From Actinomycetota bacterium (GTDB lineage Bacteria > Actinomycetota > Thermoleophilia > Gaiellales > Gaiellaceae), in assembly GCA_016870235.1 (NCBI GenBank), contig VGCB01000167.1, forward strand, positions 1 to 6,418: DNA of 6,418 bases, in the 5' to 3' direction. Shown here piece after piece: positions 1 to 6,418 of this stretch. Each line of letters starts with the position of its first letter. Position 1 is the stretch's first letter. Made by a program: the position numbers and the translations under genes. The notes beneath the pieces are model-generated. The model saw nothing but the letters and a program-made list of their open reading frames with translations. It was not told where the DNA came from and did not search any database.

Positions 1-1894
<1,894 letters not shown>

Positions 1895-1895
<1 letters not shown>

Positions 1896-2947
1896 CAGCG
1901 CCTCGCCTCGAGCGTCTCGACCCAGCCCTCGAGGATCGGCCAGGCGTCGTGCGGGCCGGGGCCCGCCTCGGGGTGGAACTGCACGGAGCGAGCGCGGAGA
2001 TCGGGGAAGTCGAACCCCTCGACGGTGCCGTCGTAGAGCGAGACGTACGTCGCCTCGACGGCGTCGGTGGGCGCGACCGCGAAGCCGTGGTTCTGGCTCG
2101 TGACGAGGACACGGCCGGTGGCGCGCTCGAGCACCGGGTGGTTCGCGCCGCGATGGCCGAACGGGAGCTTGTACGTCTCGTGGCCGGTCGCGAGCCCGAG
2201 GAGCTGGTGCCCGAGGCAGATGCCGAGGATGGGCACGCGCCCGAGGAACCCCTTGATCGTCTCGATCTCGCGCTCGAGCGGCTCCGGGTCGCCGGGGCCG
2301 TTCGAGAGCATGACCCCGTCGAACGCCGCCACCTCGTCCGGGTCCCAGACGTGCGGGAGGACGGTGACGGCGGCGCCGGCGGCGACGAGCCGGCGCGTGA
2401 TCGAGCGCTTCGCGCCGTAGTCCATGACAGCGACCCGCACGCGCCCGTCGGCGGTGGCCACCTGGGGCTCACGCACCGACACCTGCTCGACGAGCGCCGT
2501 CCCCGCCATCCCGGGCGACGACCGCACCTGCGCGAGCGCGTCCTCGACGGTCAGCTCGCGCTCGTCGGCGACGGTGACCGCGCGCATGGCGCCGGCGTCG
2601 CGCAGCCGCAGCGTCAGCCCTCGCGTGTCGACCTCGTCGAGGGCGACGATCCCGTGCTCGGAGAGCCACGCGGCCCAGTGGTCGCCGCCGAGCCGCCGCA
2701 TCAGCACGGCCTTGGCGTGGATCCGCGACGACTCCATCCGCCGCTCGTCGACGCCGTAGTTGCCGACCATCGCGGTCGTGAAGCAGATCAGCTGCTCCTC
2801 GAAGCTCGGATCGGTGACGGTCTCCTGGTAGCCGGTCATCCCGGTCGTGAAGACCGCCTCGCCGAAGGCGAGCCCGGGCGCGCCGACCGACCGGCCGCGG
2901 AACACGGTGCCGTCCTCGAGCAGGAGGTAGCCGGGCGTCCCGATCAC
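1895..2947 (-). CDS. carA: Carbamoyl-phosphate synthase small (glutaminase) subunit
   Basis: This 350-residue subunit hydrolyses glutamine and passes ammonia to CarB. The N-terminal small-chain domain (about 1-155) carries [14 protein letters not shown] near 29-42 and the DTRGLT segment near 108. The C-terminal class I amidotransferase domain (about 170-345) has the nucleophile elbow GICLGHQ with Cys244, LSNGPGDP near 214-221, QNHGFAV, and QFHPE with His325 and Glu327 completing the triad, so it should be active. I chose the GTG at 2947 because it overlaps the pyrC stop (GTGA), has GGGAGG 10 nt upstream, and gives the standard N-terminus ([17 protein letters not shown]). An in-frame ATG at 3064 would add 39 Arg-rich residues that are pyrC read in another frame. 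It is somewhat shorter than E. coli CarA (about 382), mainly between the domains. Its stop overlaps the carB start by one base. Confidence 0.97.
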
Positions 2948-4236
2948 AGGCTGTACACCTCCCGACCGTCGGCGACCGTCCGCACGACCCGCCCGTGGAG
3001 CCGCTCGCCGAGGAGCCACGAGTTCGTCGACCGCGACCGGAACCCGTCGGCCGTCACCGTCCACTCCGCCTCGAGGTCGAGCAGGACGAGGTTGGCGCGC
3101 TCGCCGACCGCGATGCGCGGCACGGGCAGCGAGAATGCCCGCGCCGGCCCCGTCGACATCCGTTCGAGCAGCGTGCCGAGAGGGAGCGCGCCGGGCTCGA
3201 CGAGGGTCGTATAGAGCGCCGCGAACGCGGTCTCGAGGCCGGTGACGCCGAACGGCGCCTCCTCGAACGGCGCCTCCTTCTCGTGGAGCGCGTGGGGTGC
3301 GTGATCGGTGGCGATGCAGGAGATCGTGCCATCGCGCAGCGCCTCGAGGAGCGCCTGCCGATCGTCCTCGCCGCCGAGCGGCGGGTTCATCTTCGCGTTC
3401 GCGTCGAGGCTGCGGACGAGCTCGTCTGTGCGGCAGAGGTGGTGCGGGCTGACCTCGGCCGTGACGGCGACGCCGAGCGAGAGGGCGTGACGGAGCGCCT
3501 CGACCGACTCCTTCGCGGACAGGTGCATGAGGTGCAGCGGCCGGTTCTCGTACCGCGCGAGCAGCAGGTCGCGCTCGACCATCGCCGCCTCTGCGATCCC
3601 CGGCCAGCCGGCGAAGCCGAGCTCGGCGGAGACGGGCCCCTCGTGCATCTGGCCGTCGCGGGAGAGGCTCGTCTCCTCGCAGTGGAGCGTGAGGATGCGG
3701 CCGGCGACGGCGCTGTACTGCAGGGCCCGCTGCATCAGCCCGGCGGACGCGACCGGCTTGCCGTCGTCGCTGAACGCCGCCGCGCCGGCGGCAGCGAGGT
3801 CGGCCATCTCGGTCAGCTCCTCGCCGCGCAGGCCCTTCGAGATCGCGGCCATGAAGCCGATCGGCACGAGCGCCTCCTCGCGGGCGCGCTCGACGAGCGA
3901 GGCGAGCACGGACGCGCTGTCGACGACCGGATCGGTGTTCGGCGGCGCCACGATCGCGCAGTAGCCGCCGGCCGCGGCGGCGGCGGTCGCGGTGGCGATC
4001 GTCTCCTCGTCCTCGCGGCCCGGCGTGCGGACGTGGACGTGCGGATCGACGAAGGCCGGCGCGAGCACGAGCCCCGCGCGTCCGGTGCCGCGGCCGGGCT
4101 CGATCGCCGCGATCCGTCCGCGCTCGACGCGAATCGTGGCGACGAGGTCGAGGCCTTCGGCCGGGTCGAGCACGCGGAGGTCCTCGATCACGAGGTCGTC
4201 GGCCGCTCCGTTGCGGCAGAAGAGGACGTCCGTCAT
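2944..4236 (-). CDS. pyrC: Dihydroorotase, class I (zinc amidohydrolase)
   Basis: This 430-residue enzyme cyclises N-carbamoyl-aspartate to dihydroorotate, the third step of the pathway. It has the amidohydrolase layout: a small beta domain from both termini around a TIM barrel. Visible active-site residues are the metal ligands in DPHVHVR (His66, His68) with substrate-binding Arg70, Asn100 in PPNT, Asp158 in FSDDGKP (the bridging acid of class I), His185 in LTLHCEE, His238 in HLMHLS, and catalytic Asp311 in ATDHAPH. All expected ligands are present, so this is not the inactive pseudo-dihydroorotase found with some aspartate transcarbamoylases. The usual NPPLR is NPPLGG here (284-289). The start ATG overlaps the pyrB stop (ATGA) with GGAGG 4 nt upstream. 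Its own stop overlaps the carA GTG by 4 bp. A hydantoinase or allantoinase would look similar, but the operon settles the role. Confidence 0.97.
   Translation of the reverse strand: MTDVLFCRNGAADDLVIEDLRVLDPAEGLDLVATIRVERGRIAAIEPGRGTGRAGLVLAPAFVDPHVHVRTPGREDEETIATATAAAAAGGYCAIVAPPNTDPVVDSASVLASLVERAREEALVPIGFMAAISKGLRGEELTEMADLAAAGAAAFSDDGKPVASAGLMQRALQYSAVAGRILTLHCEETSLSRDGQMHEGPVSAELGFAGWPGIAEAAMVERDLLLARYENRPLHLMHLSAKESVEALRHALSLGVAVTAEVSPHHLCRTDELVRSLDANAKMNPPLGGEDDRQALLEALRDGTISCIATDHAPHALHEKEAPFEEAPFGVTGLETAFAALYTTLVEPGALPLGTLLERMSTGPARAFSLPVPRIAVGERANLVLLDLEAEWTVTADGFRSRSTNSWLLGERLHGRVVRTVADGREVYSL
2958..2963 (-). promoter_or_regulatory. Ribosome-binding site deciding the carA GTG start (GGGAGG)
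   Basis: GGGAGG lies within the last codons of pyrC, 10 nt before the GTG at 2947 that overlaps the pyrC stop. It supports the GTG over the in-frame ATG further upstream, which would encode unconserved Arg-rich sequence. Confidence 0.7.
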
Positions 4237-5231
4237 GCGACCTCCATCGGCTCGACCTCGGCCACGCGCACGGGCCCTGTCGCCAGGAGGTCGTAGAGCA
4301 CCGCCATCCGGACGACGAGCCCGAACCGGACCTGCTGGGTCACGAGCGCCTGCGGCGCGTCGGCGACGCGCGGGTCGATCTCGACGCCGCGGTTCATCGG
4401 GCCCGGGTGCATGACGATCTGGCCGGGCCGCACGCGCTCGGGCGTCACGCCCCAGAGCGCGGAGTACTCGCGCAGCGAGGGGACGAACGCGGCGCCGGGC
4501 AGCATCCGCTCGTGCTGCATCCGGAGCACGTAGACGACGTCGGCGTCGGCGATCGCGTCGATCGAGGTCGACGTCTCGCAGCCGAGCGCCTCGATCCCGC
4601 GGGGGATCAGGGTCGGCGGCCCGACGAGCGTGCTGCGGGCGCCGACCAGGGTCAGCGCCTCGAGGAGCGAGCGGGCGACGCGCGAGTGGAGGACGTCGCC
4701 GACGATCGCGACGTGCACGCCTTCGAGGCGGCCGAGCGCGTCGCGGATCGTGTAGAGGTCGAGCAGCGCCTGCGTCGGATGCTGGTGCTTGCCGTCGCCC
4801 GCGTTCACGACGTGGGCGTTCGTCGCGCGGGCGACGAGGTCGGCGGCGCCGATGTGCGGGTGGCGGATCACGATCACGTCGGGGTCGTAGGCGGCGAGCG
4901 TGAGCGCGGTGTCCTTCAGCGACTCCCCCTTGTCGACCGAGGAGCCGGACGAGCGGAGCGCCATCGTGTCCGCCGAGAGCCGCTTCGCGGCGAGATCGAA
5001 GCTCGAGAGCGTGCGGGTGGAGGACTCGTAGAAGAGGTTGACGACGAGGCGGCCGCGCAGCGTCGGCAGCTTCTTCACCTCGCGCTCGAGTGAGCGGGCG
5101 AGCGCGGCGGCGGTGTCGAGGATGCGCCCGGCGGCCGCCCGATCGAGGTCGCCGATCCCGATCAGGTGCCGTCGGGCAGGACGGTCCGGCGGCCGCAGGT
5201 CCTCGACGACGCGGAGCGTGTTCTCAGCCAT
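4233..5231 (-). CDS. pyrB: Aspartate carbamoyltransferase, catalytic chain
   Basis: This 332-residue enzyme condenses carbamoyl phosphate with aspartate, the committed step of pyrimidine synthesis. The N-terminal carbamoyl-phosphate domain has the STRT loop at 71-74, the SSVDKGES loop with Lys101, RHP at 123-125, and HPTQALLD with His151 and Gln154. The aspartate domain has [11 protein letters not shown] with Arg184, LRMQHERM with Arg237, and HPGPMNRG at 275-282. All are catalytic-chain signatures. LRMQ and HPGP distinguish it from ornithine carbamoyltransferase. After STRT the common Arg is Leu75; the neighbouring [13 protein letters not shown] resembles the STRTQSSFELAGKRLGAD type I recall from alphaproteobacteria. 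The ATG lies inside the end of pyrR (8-bp overlap), preceded by AGGAGGA at 5 nt spacing. No pyrI regulatory-chain gene is adjacent, so nucleotide feedback of the E. coli kind is unlikely and PyrR probably supplies control. Confidence 0.98.
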
Positions 5232-5820
5232 GCGATTCCTCCTCGGCTGCGGGCAGGAGCAGGACGGCGTCGGTCTCGTCGATCTCGACGAGCTGCACCT
5301 GGACGCGCTCGTCGCGCGCGGTCGGCAGGTTCTTGCCGACGTAGTCGGGACGGATCGGCAGCTCGCGGTGGCCGCGGTCGACGAGCACCGCGAGCTGGAC
5401 CCGGGCGGGGCGGCCGTAGTCGAAGAGGGCTTCGATCGCGGCCCTGATCGTGCGGCCGGTGTAGAGCACGTCGTCGACGAGGACGACCGTGCGCCCCTCG
5501 ATCGGCACGTCGAGCTGGGTCGCGTGCACGACCGGCTGGGCGGCGCGCGGCGGCCCGCCGGCGCGGACGAGGACGTCGTCGCGGTGGAAGGTGATGTCGA
5601 CGGCGCCGAGATCGACCTCGACGCCCGAGCGGTCGGCGACGAGGCGGCGGAGCCGCTGCGCGAGCGGAAGCCCGCGGCGATGGATCCCGACGAGCACGAT
5701 GTCGTCGAGGCCGTCGTTGCGCTCGATCAGCTCATGCGCGATGCGGGCGAGGGTTCGCGCCAGGGCCTCGGCGTCGAGAAGCGTCTTCGGCGCGGGCCGG
5801 CTCGGGACGTTGGTGGTCAT
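5224..5820 (-). CDS. pyrR: PyrR: pyr operon RNA-binding regulator / uracil phosphoribosyltransferase
   Basis: PyrR binds a specific hairpin in pyr mRNA when UMP or UTP is high and represses the operon; many homologues also convert uracil plus PRPP to UMP. The 198-residue protein follows Bacillus subtilis PyrR along its length: [11 protein letters not shown] at 24-34, LVGIHRRG at 43-50, DITFHRDD at 75-82, the PRPP-binding loop [12 protein letters not shown] at 113-124, and [18 protein letters not shown] at 143-160. The C-terminal tail (AAEEESHG) looks unconserved. The ATG at 5820 has AAGGAG 5 nt upstream, and that Shine-Dalgarno lies in the predicted PyrR hairpin, so pyrR probably controls its own translation and, by coupling, that of the genes behind it. 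It is the first gene of the operon. The final codons provide the pyrB Shine-Dalgarno. Confidence 0.97.
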
Positions 5821-5825
5821 GCGCG

Positions 5826-5831
5826 CTCCTT
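5826..5831 (-). promoter_or_regulatory. Ribosome-binding site of pyrR (AAGGAG)
   Basis: AAGGAG sits 5 nt (CGCGC) before the pyrR ATG and fixes that start. Five of its six bases can pair with an upstream UCCUU, which is itself an anti-Shine-Dalgarno-like sequence. Initiation is therefore expected to depend on the state of the hairpin. Confidence 0.85.
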
Positions 5832-5858
5832 CCGGCCTCGCTGGACCGGGTTAAAGGA
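5827..5858 (-). promoter_or_regulatory. PyrR-binding hairpin sequestering the pyrR Shine-Dalgarno
   Basis: Read on the minus strand, the RNA has five parts. UCCUU (5858-5854) is followed by a 5'-side bulge UAAC, the stem CCGGUC, the hexaloop CAGCGA (5843-5838), the returning stem GGCCGG, and AAGGA (5831-5827). The upper stem has six pairs, including one U-G, and the lower stem has five. The core GGUCCAGCGAGGCC fits the PyrR recognition consensus ARUCCNGNGAGGYU at the loop-proximal positions (UCC, G, GAGG, Y). A bulge on the 5' side is also a known trait of these sites. The lower stem contains AAGGA of the pyrR ribosome-binding site, so bound PyrR should block initiation at the ATG 5 nt further on. 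The base pairing is seen directly; PyrR binding is inferred from the family and the position. Confidence 0.88.
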
Positions 5859-5868
5859 CGTTTCGACG

Positions 5869-5874
5869 AGCCTA
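5869..5874 (-). promoter_or_regulatory. Candidate -10 box of the pyr operon promoter (TAGGCT)
   Basis: TAGGCT fits the TAnnnT pattern of high-GC sigma-70-type promoters. The likely start is an A at about 5863-5861, giving a leader of some 41-44 nt whose first structured element is the PyrR hairpin. No good -35 is present; the best partial match is GCGACG at a long 19-nt spacing. The assignment rests on the -10 and its placement, so it is tentative. Confidence 0.45.
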
Positions 5875-5918
5875 CCCGCGGCGGCAGACGGGGCGTCGCA
5901 GACCCTCCCGCCGTCGAT

Positions 5919-5935
5919 GCTGACAAAACGCTAAC
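5919..5935. repeat. Imperfect direct repeat at 11-bp period in the divergent intergenic region
   Basis: On the plus strand GCTGAC (5919-5924) and GCTAAC (5930-5935) are separated by AAAAC, giving five of six identities with an 11-bp repeat length, one helical turn. This is the most A/T-rich patch of the 151-bp intergenic region. Tandem half-sites at about 11 bp are typical of OmpR/PhoB-family regulators, but the match is short and could be chance. It lies upstream of both divergent candidate promoters. Confidence 0.3.
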
Positions 5936-5957
5936 GATCCACCGCGCGCCCGCCGCG

Positions 5958-5963
5958 TAGCCT
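5958..5963 (+). promoter_or_regulatory. Candidate -10 box for the divergent gene (TAGCCT), suggesting a leaderless mRNA
   Basis: TAGCCT fits TAnnnT and ends 8 nt before the ATG at 5972. Transcription starting at the usual distance would begin at or within a base or two of that ATG. No Shine-Dalgarno precedes the ATG (GGACGTCG), in keeping with leaderless translation, which is common in actinobacteria. No clear -35 is seen. Confidence 0.4.
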
Positions 5964-5971
5964 GGACGTCG

Positions 5972-6418
5972 ATGTGTGCCCGTGGGGTTGGTCGACCCGC
6001 GGCGGATGCGGCCCGTCGGCGCTTGCCCCGACTGCCGGGGTGGGCATGGGTCATCGTGATCGTCGCCCTTTCGGCCGCGGCGCGCGTGTTCGCCGCCCGC
6101 GGCGTCTCGGCCGCGTGGATCGCGCCCGACGAGCCGTACTACGGGCTCGTCGGCAGGAGCCTCTTCGGCGGCGACACGGTCCTGGATGGCGTGCCGGGCA
6201 CGTCGCTCGTGACGCCGCTCGTCCTCGGGCTGCCGACGCTCGTCTTCGACGACGTCGCGTCGGTGGTGTCGGCGGCGCAGGTCATCCACGCGGTCCTGAT
6301 GTCGACGGTCGTCGCCGTCGCCTTCGCGTGGGCCCGGCCGCTCGCCGGCGAGCGCTGGGCCTACGCGGCCGGAGCGCTCGCCGCCCTCGCGCCGGGAATG
6401 GCCTACGCGGGGCTGATG
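5972..6418 (+). CDS. Membrane GT-C type glycosyltransferase (family 39-like), partial: N-terminal 149 residues
   Basis: The reading frame is open from the ATG to the right edge. An Arg-rich start (residues 4-20) is followed by a first membrane helix at about 22-42. An outer loop then carries PDEPYY with Asp53-Glu54 and VGRSLFGGD, and further hydrophobic helices lie at about 78-92, 98-119 and 128-148. This layout, an acidic pair shortly after the first helix, then a GRSL segment and a HAVLMS helix, is that of GT-C transferases related to protein mannosyltransferases and the ArnT/RgtA-type group. These use polyprenyl-phosphate sugars at the outer membrane face, with the acidic residue as catalytic base. 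Acceptor and sugar cannot be told from this fragment; cell-envelope glycan or protein glycosylation is a reasonable inference. It is divergent from the pyr operon and shows no functional link to it. The start is chosen by frame, the TAnnnT box and the lack of a better upstream codon. Confidence 0.75.
   Translation, partial: MCARGVGRPAADAARRRLPRLPGWAWVIVIVALSAAARVFAARGVSAAWIAPDEPYYGLVGRSLFGGDTVLDGVPGTSLVTPLVLGLPTLVFDDVASVVSAAQVIHAVLMSTVVAVAFAWARPLAGERWAYAAGALAALAPGMAYAGLM

Follow-up and report, generated by a model that had tools for sequence, protein, structure and literature searches.

A PyrR-type hairpin with the pyrR Shine-Dalgarno sequence in its lower stem as the predicted operator of translational control of a pyr operon in Thermoleophilia

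The window, by which we mean the whole stretch of 6,418 nucleotides that was analysed, carries on its minus strand a pyr operon preceded by a PyrR-type hairpin, and one strand of this hairpin is at the same time the putative Shine-Dalgarno (SD) sequence of the first gene, pyrR. The hairpin very likely serves as operator in an autogenous switch by which PyrR would repress the translation of its own operon. The switch in the window is in itself of a known type, and the part that deserves the attention of specialists is the pattern found across the class. By the class we mean Thermoleophilia, to which genome G006 belongs (Candidatus Gaiellasilicea maunaloa, order Gaiellales, the source of locus L006) and in which we infer that the window is to be placed. 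The pattern suggests that translational control by PyrR is not peculiar to mycobacteria and is the usual condition in a class whose members are known largely from metagenomes.

The hairpin and the pyr operon in the window

The features of the window are the following.

3..1895, minus strand: carB, 1 nt in common with carA, partial at the window edge
1895..2947, minus strand: carA, overlapping pyrC by 4 nt
2944..4236, minus strand: pyrC, overlapping pyrB by 4 nt
4233..5231, minus strand: pyrB, overlapping pyrR by 8 nt
5224..5820, minus strand: pyrR, 198 aa, AUG at 5820-5818, Pfam PF00156; its best solved relatives are PyrR proteins
5826..5831, minus strand: AAGGAG, read from the sequence as the putative SD of pyrR
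5827..5858, minus strand: PyrR-type hairpin of 32 nt, from its fold, Rfam RF00515 (24.4 bits, below the gathering score) and our model R1 (39.9 bits, the window being left out of its training)
5838..5843, minus strand: apical loop CAGCGA of 6 nt, which fits the PyrR consensus CNGNGA
5854..5858, minus strand: UCCUU, the 5' strand of the lower stem, complementary to the SD by sequence and fold; its CUU is invariant in 32 hairpins from several phyla
5869..5874, minus strand: TAGGCT, a -10-like box of the form TANNNT seen in the sequence, 10 nt upstream of the hairpin

Read from 5' to 3', the hairpin consists of UCCUU, the 4-nt bulge UAAC between the lower and upper stems, CCGGUC, the loop CAGCGA, GGCCGG and AAGGA, and is followed by G5826. 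The PyrR consensus of GUCCNGNGAGGC with a 5' bulge and a CCUU/AAGG lower stem is matched by GUCCAGCGAGGC, UAAC and UCCUU/AAGGA. The first five letters of AAGGAG (5831-5826, minus strand) form the 3' side of the lower stem, and the AUG of pyrR stands 7 nt behind AAGG. The original prediction had drawn the same 32-nt structure with its UAAC bulge and PyrR-like loop, with the SD inside the lower stem and a pyr operon behind it, and sequence and fold agree with that drawing throughout. The operon has the order pyrRBC-carAB, every gene in it overlaps its predecessor, and the hairpin is sited ahead of all of these genes, pyrR included. A divergent open reading frame on the plus strand (5972-6418) is partial at the window edge and had no Pfam match at E 0.001.

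Given the box TAGGCT at 5874-5869, the mRNA would start a few nt ahead of the hairpin; we predict a transcript start near 5862-5860, which would make the hairpin the 5' end of the mRNA. A scan of 5700-6100 with the sigma-70 consensus gave no match, and the TANNNT box came from the alignment of relatives.

PyrR of the window has relatives that are up to 89% identical to it. The nearest titled genome records are those of Actinomycetota and Thermoleophilia, and the PyrR proteins of L001-L006 are 70-76% identical to that of the window. Residues R26, H29, R34, H151, R152, R157 and K163, which we take to match the RNA-contacting residues of Bacillus subtilis PyrR, are invariant in 17 PyrR sequences including that of the window. 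Residue 25, whose B. subtilis counterpart is presumably the RNA contact T18, is A in the window and A or S in most aligned relatives.

Homology to PyrR-binding sites

The segment 5858-5826 has a minimum free energy of -13.5 kcal/mol and a z-score of -2.23, with 7 of 200 shuffles equally stable. When 81 or 141 nt of context are included, the z-score becomes 0.16 or 0.22 and the hairpin is still present in the minimum free energy structure; one 80-nt fold gives a different structure in its place. Folding is weak evidence on its own because the z-score is near zero once context is added, and it is homology, rather than folding energy, that argues strongly for the hairpin. The Rfam PyrR model (RF00515) scored it at 24.4 bits (E 4.5) and did not reach its gathering score of 54; the model is 115 nt long and the window aligns to model positions 5-36 only. 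Thus, the short leader form of the PyrR element falls under the Rfam gathering score. Rfam also matched two families named after other kinds of organism, mir-1908 (E 0.2) and Tombus_IRE (E 1.4), at scores below gathering, and we regard these matches as chance.

Because the Rfam model is long and its match was below gathering, we built a short covariance model, R1, of 37 nt from 32 hairpins that lie ahead of pyrR in other genomes, with the window excluded. For its training 56 hairpins were listed from 80 loci, after removal of all loci that the pattern did not match and of seven whose loops were odd, doubtful or in tandem; 51 of the 56 were aligned with the window and the 32 in register were retained. 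R1 found the hairpin in the window at 39.9 bits (E 1e-7), and the runner-up site scored 4.2 bits. This confirms the identity of the PyrR site that had been predicted from the letters.

Conservation and covariation in relatives

R1 matched at E <=0.1 in 140 of 149 sampled Thermoleophilia genomes. The nine without a match comprise five with no pyrR match, two in which pyrR is cut at a contig end and two with a diverged hairpin. In a sample of the phylum Actinomycetota 241 of 296 genomes had a match, a figure to be read with the caveat that 37 of 58 hairpins from outside the class carry a terminator-like stem. Conservation in relatives, which had been named as a check, is therefore clear, and the suggestion that the element reaches other high-GC lineages holds within that caveat.

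In the 32 hairpins from several phyla 95.9% of cells pair. Two-sided changes occur in 29 cells, whereas shuffles give 8.8 and none of 500 reached this number; the upper stem accounts for 26 of the 29, and the covariation in the true register beats that in all six slid versions. The number of base pairs with a two-sided change is not exceptional (5 against 3.4 shuffled, reached by 48 of 500 shuffles). The class set consists of 94 hairpins (88 class loci and the window, 87 distinct) in an alignment fitted to R1; here 96.6% of cells pair and 29 are two-sided against 7.4 in shuffles, but 21 of these 29 repeat a single exchange of C-G for G-C at one base pair, for the most part among related genomes. 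Covariation had been expected in both stems. For the upper stem the expectation is borne out well, but the lower stem shows few changes.

The lower stem is in fact nearly constant. In the 32 hairpins CUU/AAG is invariant and the outermost pair is C-G in 27, U-A in 3 and U-G in 2; CCUU is present in 134 of 136 class hairpins; and the stem is near-constant also in other phyla where the gene start is far downstream. The claim that UCCUU/AAGGA is a purpose-built anti-SD therefore has to be given up, since PyrR sites in general have CCUU/AAGG as their almost unvarying lower stem, those in the terminator leaders of Bacillota included. What is special here is the placement of the start codon, by which the constant strand becomes the SD, together with its lengthening to AAGGAG, a string found in 65 of 136 class hairpins versus 4 of 46 hairpins from mixed phyla that lie far from their gene.

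Two loci that are alike and related, L263 and L264, have UCGU/ACGA in place of CCUU/AAGG with all pairs kept (hairpin at oriented position 201), and the AAGG string is gone from the stem. Because the hairpin is kept without AAGG, hiding of the SD cannot explain everything in these two loci, and they warn that occlusion of the initiation region could be as important as concealment of the SD. By eye, a change of CUU/AAG to CGU/ACG with pairing kept was also seen at L051:2897-2933 and in L078.

Start codons, promoter boxes and terminators near the hairpin

The class hairpins number 136, of which 135 come from 119 of the 140 matching genomes (genomes counted by hand) and one is that of the window. 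By blastx the gene behind them is pyrR in 105, pyrC in 12, pyrB in 9 and carB in 8, with no match in 2. An ATG lies 4-14 nt past the stem in 102 of the 136, against 5-17 in seven control windows, and an ATG or GTG in 117, against 20-45. On the other side, 128 of 136 have a TANNNT box within the 25 nt that end 5 nt ahead of the stem, the control counts in three intervals further upstream being 11, 7 and 3. Among 131 aligned boxes, G stands two bases ahead in 85% and T three bases ahead in 49%. Of the same 131 promoters, 29 have a CGTC that begins 16 nt before the box and 12 have TTGAC 23-24 nt before it. Freeing the SD costs a median of 3.5 kcal/mol in isolated hairpins (n=134), and a helix of this strength is one that a ribosome is able to unwind and that could be held shut by a bound protein.

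In Bacillus-like transcription attenuation, bound PyrR would act as an anti-antiterminator and let a terminator form. The same family of hairpin does precede terminator-like stems in other leaders: scripts of one kind place such a stem in 60 of 60 sampled leaders of Bacillota, in 19 of 29 of Chloroflexota, in 37 of 58 of those Actinomycetota that are not Thermoleophilia, and in 12 of 136 within the class. In the window, however, no terminator-like site was found in 5700-6100, and just 6 nt separate the hairpin from the AUG. Attenuation is thus extremely unlikely as the mode of control here, and translational control, which had been the original reading, remains the best prediction with the SD inside the PyrR site and no terminator in the leader. 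The Bacilli, Clostridia and Chloroflexota loci were the best 30 by score of each sample, with the first pattern match per locus used; the Chloroflexota locus L367 was dropped for want of a pattern match, and 8 of the 60 Bacillota leaders had no pyr gene match behind them.

The terminator-like stems before pyrR in the class fall in two small sets, one of L200, L209, L255, L262 and L269 and the other of L253, L254, L256, L258, L259, L261 and L265, and the mode of control may therefore have switched within the class. The comparison suggests that attenuation and translational control are built upon one RNA element.

One hairpin per translationally coupled block

At junctions between pyr genes of 35 nt or less, which are mostly overlaps of 1, 4 or 8 nt, a hairpin was found in 0 of 54 (37 loci). 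At wider pyr junctions it was found in 13 of 14, the exception being pyrB of L009 with a gap of 52. Twelve of the 13 were found by script and the other is pyrC of L127, with its hairpin at 595 at the gene start, which the script overlooked since the blast match does not start until residue 52. For the junction table, the 37 loci were chosen by hand among those retrieved, junctions without a computable gap were excluded, and the 54 short junctions include two artefacts of start choice (L011 pyrB, -577, and L001 carA, -76). There is thus about one hairpin per coupled block, and the hairpins mark the block heads. Some class genomes have separate hairpins at pyrB, pyrC and carB, and by eye each of these stands behind a TANNNT box; in G042, pyrB, pyrC and carA overlap under one common hairpin and carB has its own. 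One hairpin per block is what translational control with coupling would predict, and we consider it to be the best comparative evidence for the mechanism proposed below. As a rule it would predict which pyr genes are controlled.

Eight class loci that show pyrR have no hairpin in front of it (L111, L115, L118, L126, L127, L128, L204 and L208), and in the same loci pyrB and, where it is in view, pyrC carry one hairpin each. Autoregulation of pyrR is therefore not universal in the class. PyrR belongs to the phosphoribosyltransferase family, and with pyrR outside hairpin control in such loci it could be argued that the hairpin of the window is a relic, the regulation being lost and PyrR working as a uracil phosphoribosyltransferase. 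Against this, sequence and structure are conserved class-wide with some compensatory changes, and copies of the hairpin stand at separate pyr units, which makes a relic very unlikely.

Proposed mechanism

Transcription would start a few nt upstream of the hairpin, and the mRNA would begin with it. Without PyrR, a ribosome would open the lower stem, at a cost of 3.4 kcal/mol for the window hairpin in isolation, pair with AAGGAG and initiate pyrR. UMP acts as the effector of PyrR. At high UMP levels the PyrR-UMP complex would bind the loop, the upper stem and the bulge, so that the lower stem is clamped and the SD hidden. As the hairpin includes the ribosome-binding site as one of its strands, binding of PyrR should stop translation of the operon, and because each downstream gene overlaps the end of its predecessor, repression should spread through translational coupling to pyrB, pyrC, carA and carB.

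The main output of the block could instead be less mRNA, if the message that PyrR leaves untranslated is terminated by Rho or degraded. Such an outcome might follow from translational repression as a second step, but it requires the same translational block first, and no special pointer to it was noticed in the sequence. As the principal mode of control we regard it as unlikely.

Comparison with known systems

Fields and Switzer reportedly described in 2007 the PyrR-dependent translational repression of the Mycobacterium smegmatis pyr operon. That system reportedly resembles the window in that the mRNA has a PyrR site near its start, that a terminator is absent and that the first ribosome-binding site of the operon is occluded; in the window the leader is likewise without an antiterminator or terminator and the SD is overlapped by the PyrR site. 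M. smegmatis belongs to a different class; in the window one 32-nt hairpin holds the SD in its lower stem, and relatives in the class have copies of their own at pyrB, pyrC and carB. The attenuators of Bacillota (RF00515) have the same hairpin (CCUUUAA, bulge, GUCCNGNGAGGC, AAGG), but there it lies 20-293 nt (mostly 60-200) before the gene with a terminator-like stem between, whereas the terminator that stands between PyrR site and gene in the B. subtilis attenuators is absent from the window. Ribosomal protein operons are also governed by autogenous translational operators, in which a protein encoded by the operon covers the first ribosome-binding site and the later genes are affected through coupling. 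The proposed switch would be alike in both respects; it differs in that its RNA and protein are unrelated to theirs and in that PyrR is under the control of UMP.

Tandem PyrR loops were seen in three loci. In Tsukamurella tyrosinosolvens (L270, Mycobacteriales) two loops lie in the last 65 nt before pyrR at 2495, and in two Chloroflexi loci (L043, ~2935-2985, and L063, ~2940-2990) tandem loops lie directly before the pyrR start. R1 gave a weak partial match in L043 and none in L063. The loops are possibly held inside one outer stem, and such leaders may be a variant that binds two PyrR units. That tandem loops are the usual actinobacterial form was considered and rejected, the pattern being present in 5 of 296 genomes with few of these PyrR-like.

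Among the 24 lineages whose RNA regulons were surveyed in 2013 are Corynebacteriaceae, Mycobacteriaceae and Chloroflexi, and the survey counts 211 PyrR sites (PMC3766115). Among the matches listed from the open-access literature, from which most subscription journals are missing, there was no PyrR control in Thermoleophilia, no account of one PyrR hairpin per coupled block and no leader open reading frame (ORF) behind a PyrR hairpin.

Leader open reading frames behind the hairpin

In 53 of the 105 class leaders of pyrR the start codon 4-14 nt past the stem is in the pyrR frame, as it is in the window. It is out of frame in 42 (39 ATG, 2 GTG and 1 TTG), which gives a leader ORF, and the remaining 10 have no start codon at this distance. 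For 36 of the 42 the end of the leader ORF coincides with a possible pyrR start, in 4 of them only if CTG is accepted as a start, and 6 fail this test; the NTGA overlap is partly automatic once the frame offset is right, so that these count as possible pyrR starts and no more. Of the 33 leader ORFs without a terminator-like stem, 29 have 12-16 codons and the others have 1, 8, 18 and 25. Several leaders have no ATG, GTG or TTG in the pyrR frame between the stem and the conserved region, and would therefore need a CTG start that overlaps the leader stop, or another route. A conserved leader peptide was considered but is unsupported: substitutions are even across the codon positions (37, 41 and 35 in 16 pairs), and the leader ORF is therefore not kept as a protein.

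It is possible, but in our view rather doubtful, that the PyrR hairpin is best understood as a portable operator of ribosome entry, placed once at the head of each coupled block, with the frame behind it being secondary. The leader ORF variants make the transition between translational and terminator control testable.

A first sample hinted that leader ORFs might be general, with 19 of 46 far-placed hairpins of mixed phyla against 6-9 in controls. As a general rule this was rejected in Bacilli (an ATG 4-14 nt past the stem in 6 of 30; controls 3-8) and in Clostridia (8 of 30; controls 3-10). In Chloroflexota leaders with terminators an ATG is present 4-14 nt past the stem in 10 of 19 (controls 0-5), and the frame it opens runs through the terminator in 9 of the 10, compared with 4 and 3 for the other two frames. 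In Actinomycetota outside the class, leaders with terminators have such an ATG in 13 of 37 (controls 3-7), and the frame is open in 10 of the 13, with 0 and 9 for the other frames, which leaves the frame comparison ambiguous in this group. The Chloroflexota counts suggest a hybrid switch, in which PyrR would block translation of the leader and the absence of the ribosome would let the terminator form, and ribosome-gated attenuation of this kind is possible for the terminator-type leaders of Chloroflexota. The Chloroflexota ORFs that span the terminator start 7-11 nt past the PyrR hairpin. At nine loci of that phylum (L344, L353, L355, L356, L361, L363, L364, L368 and L372) the ORF extends across both the terminator stem and the T-run.
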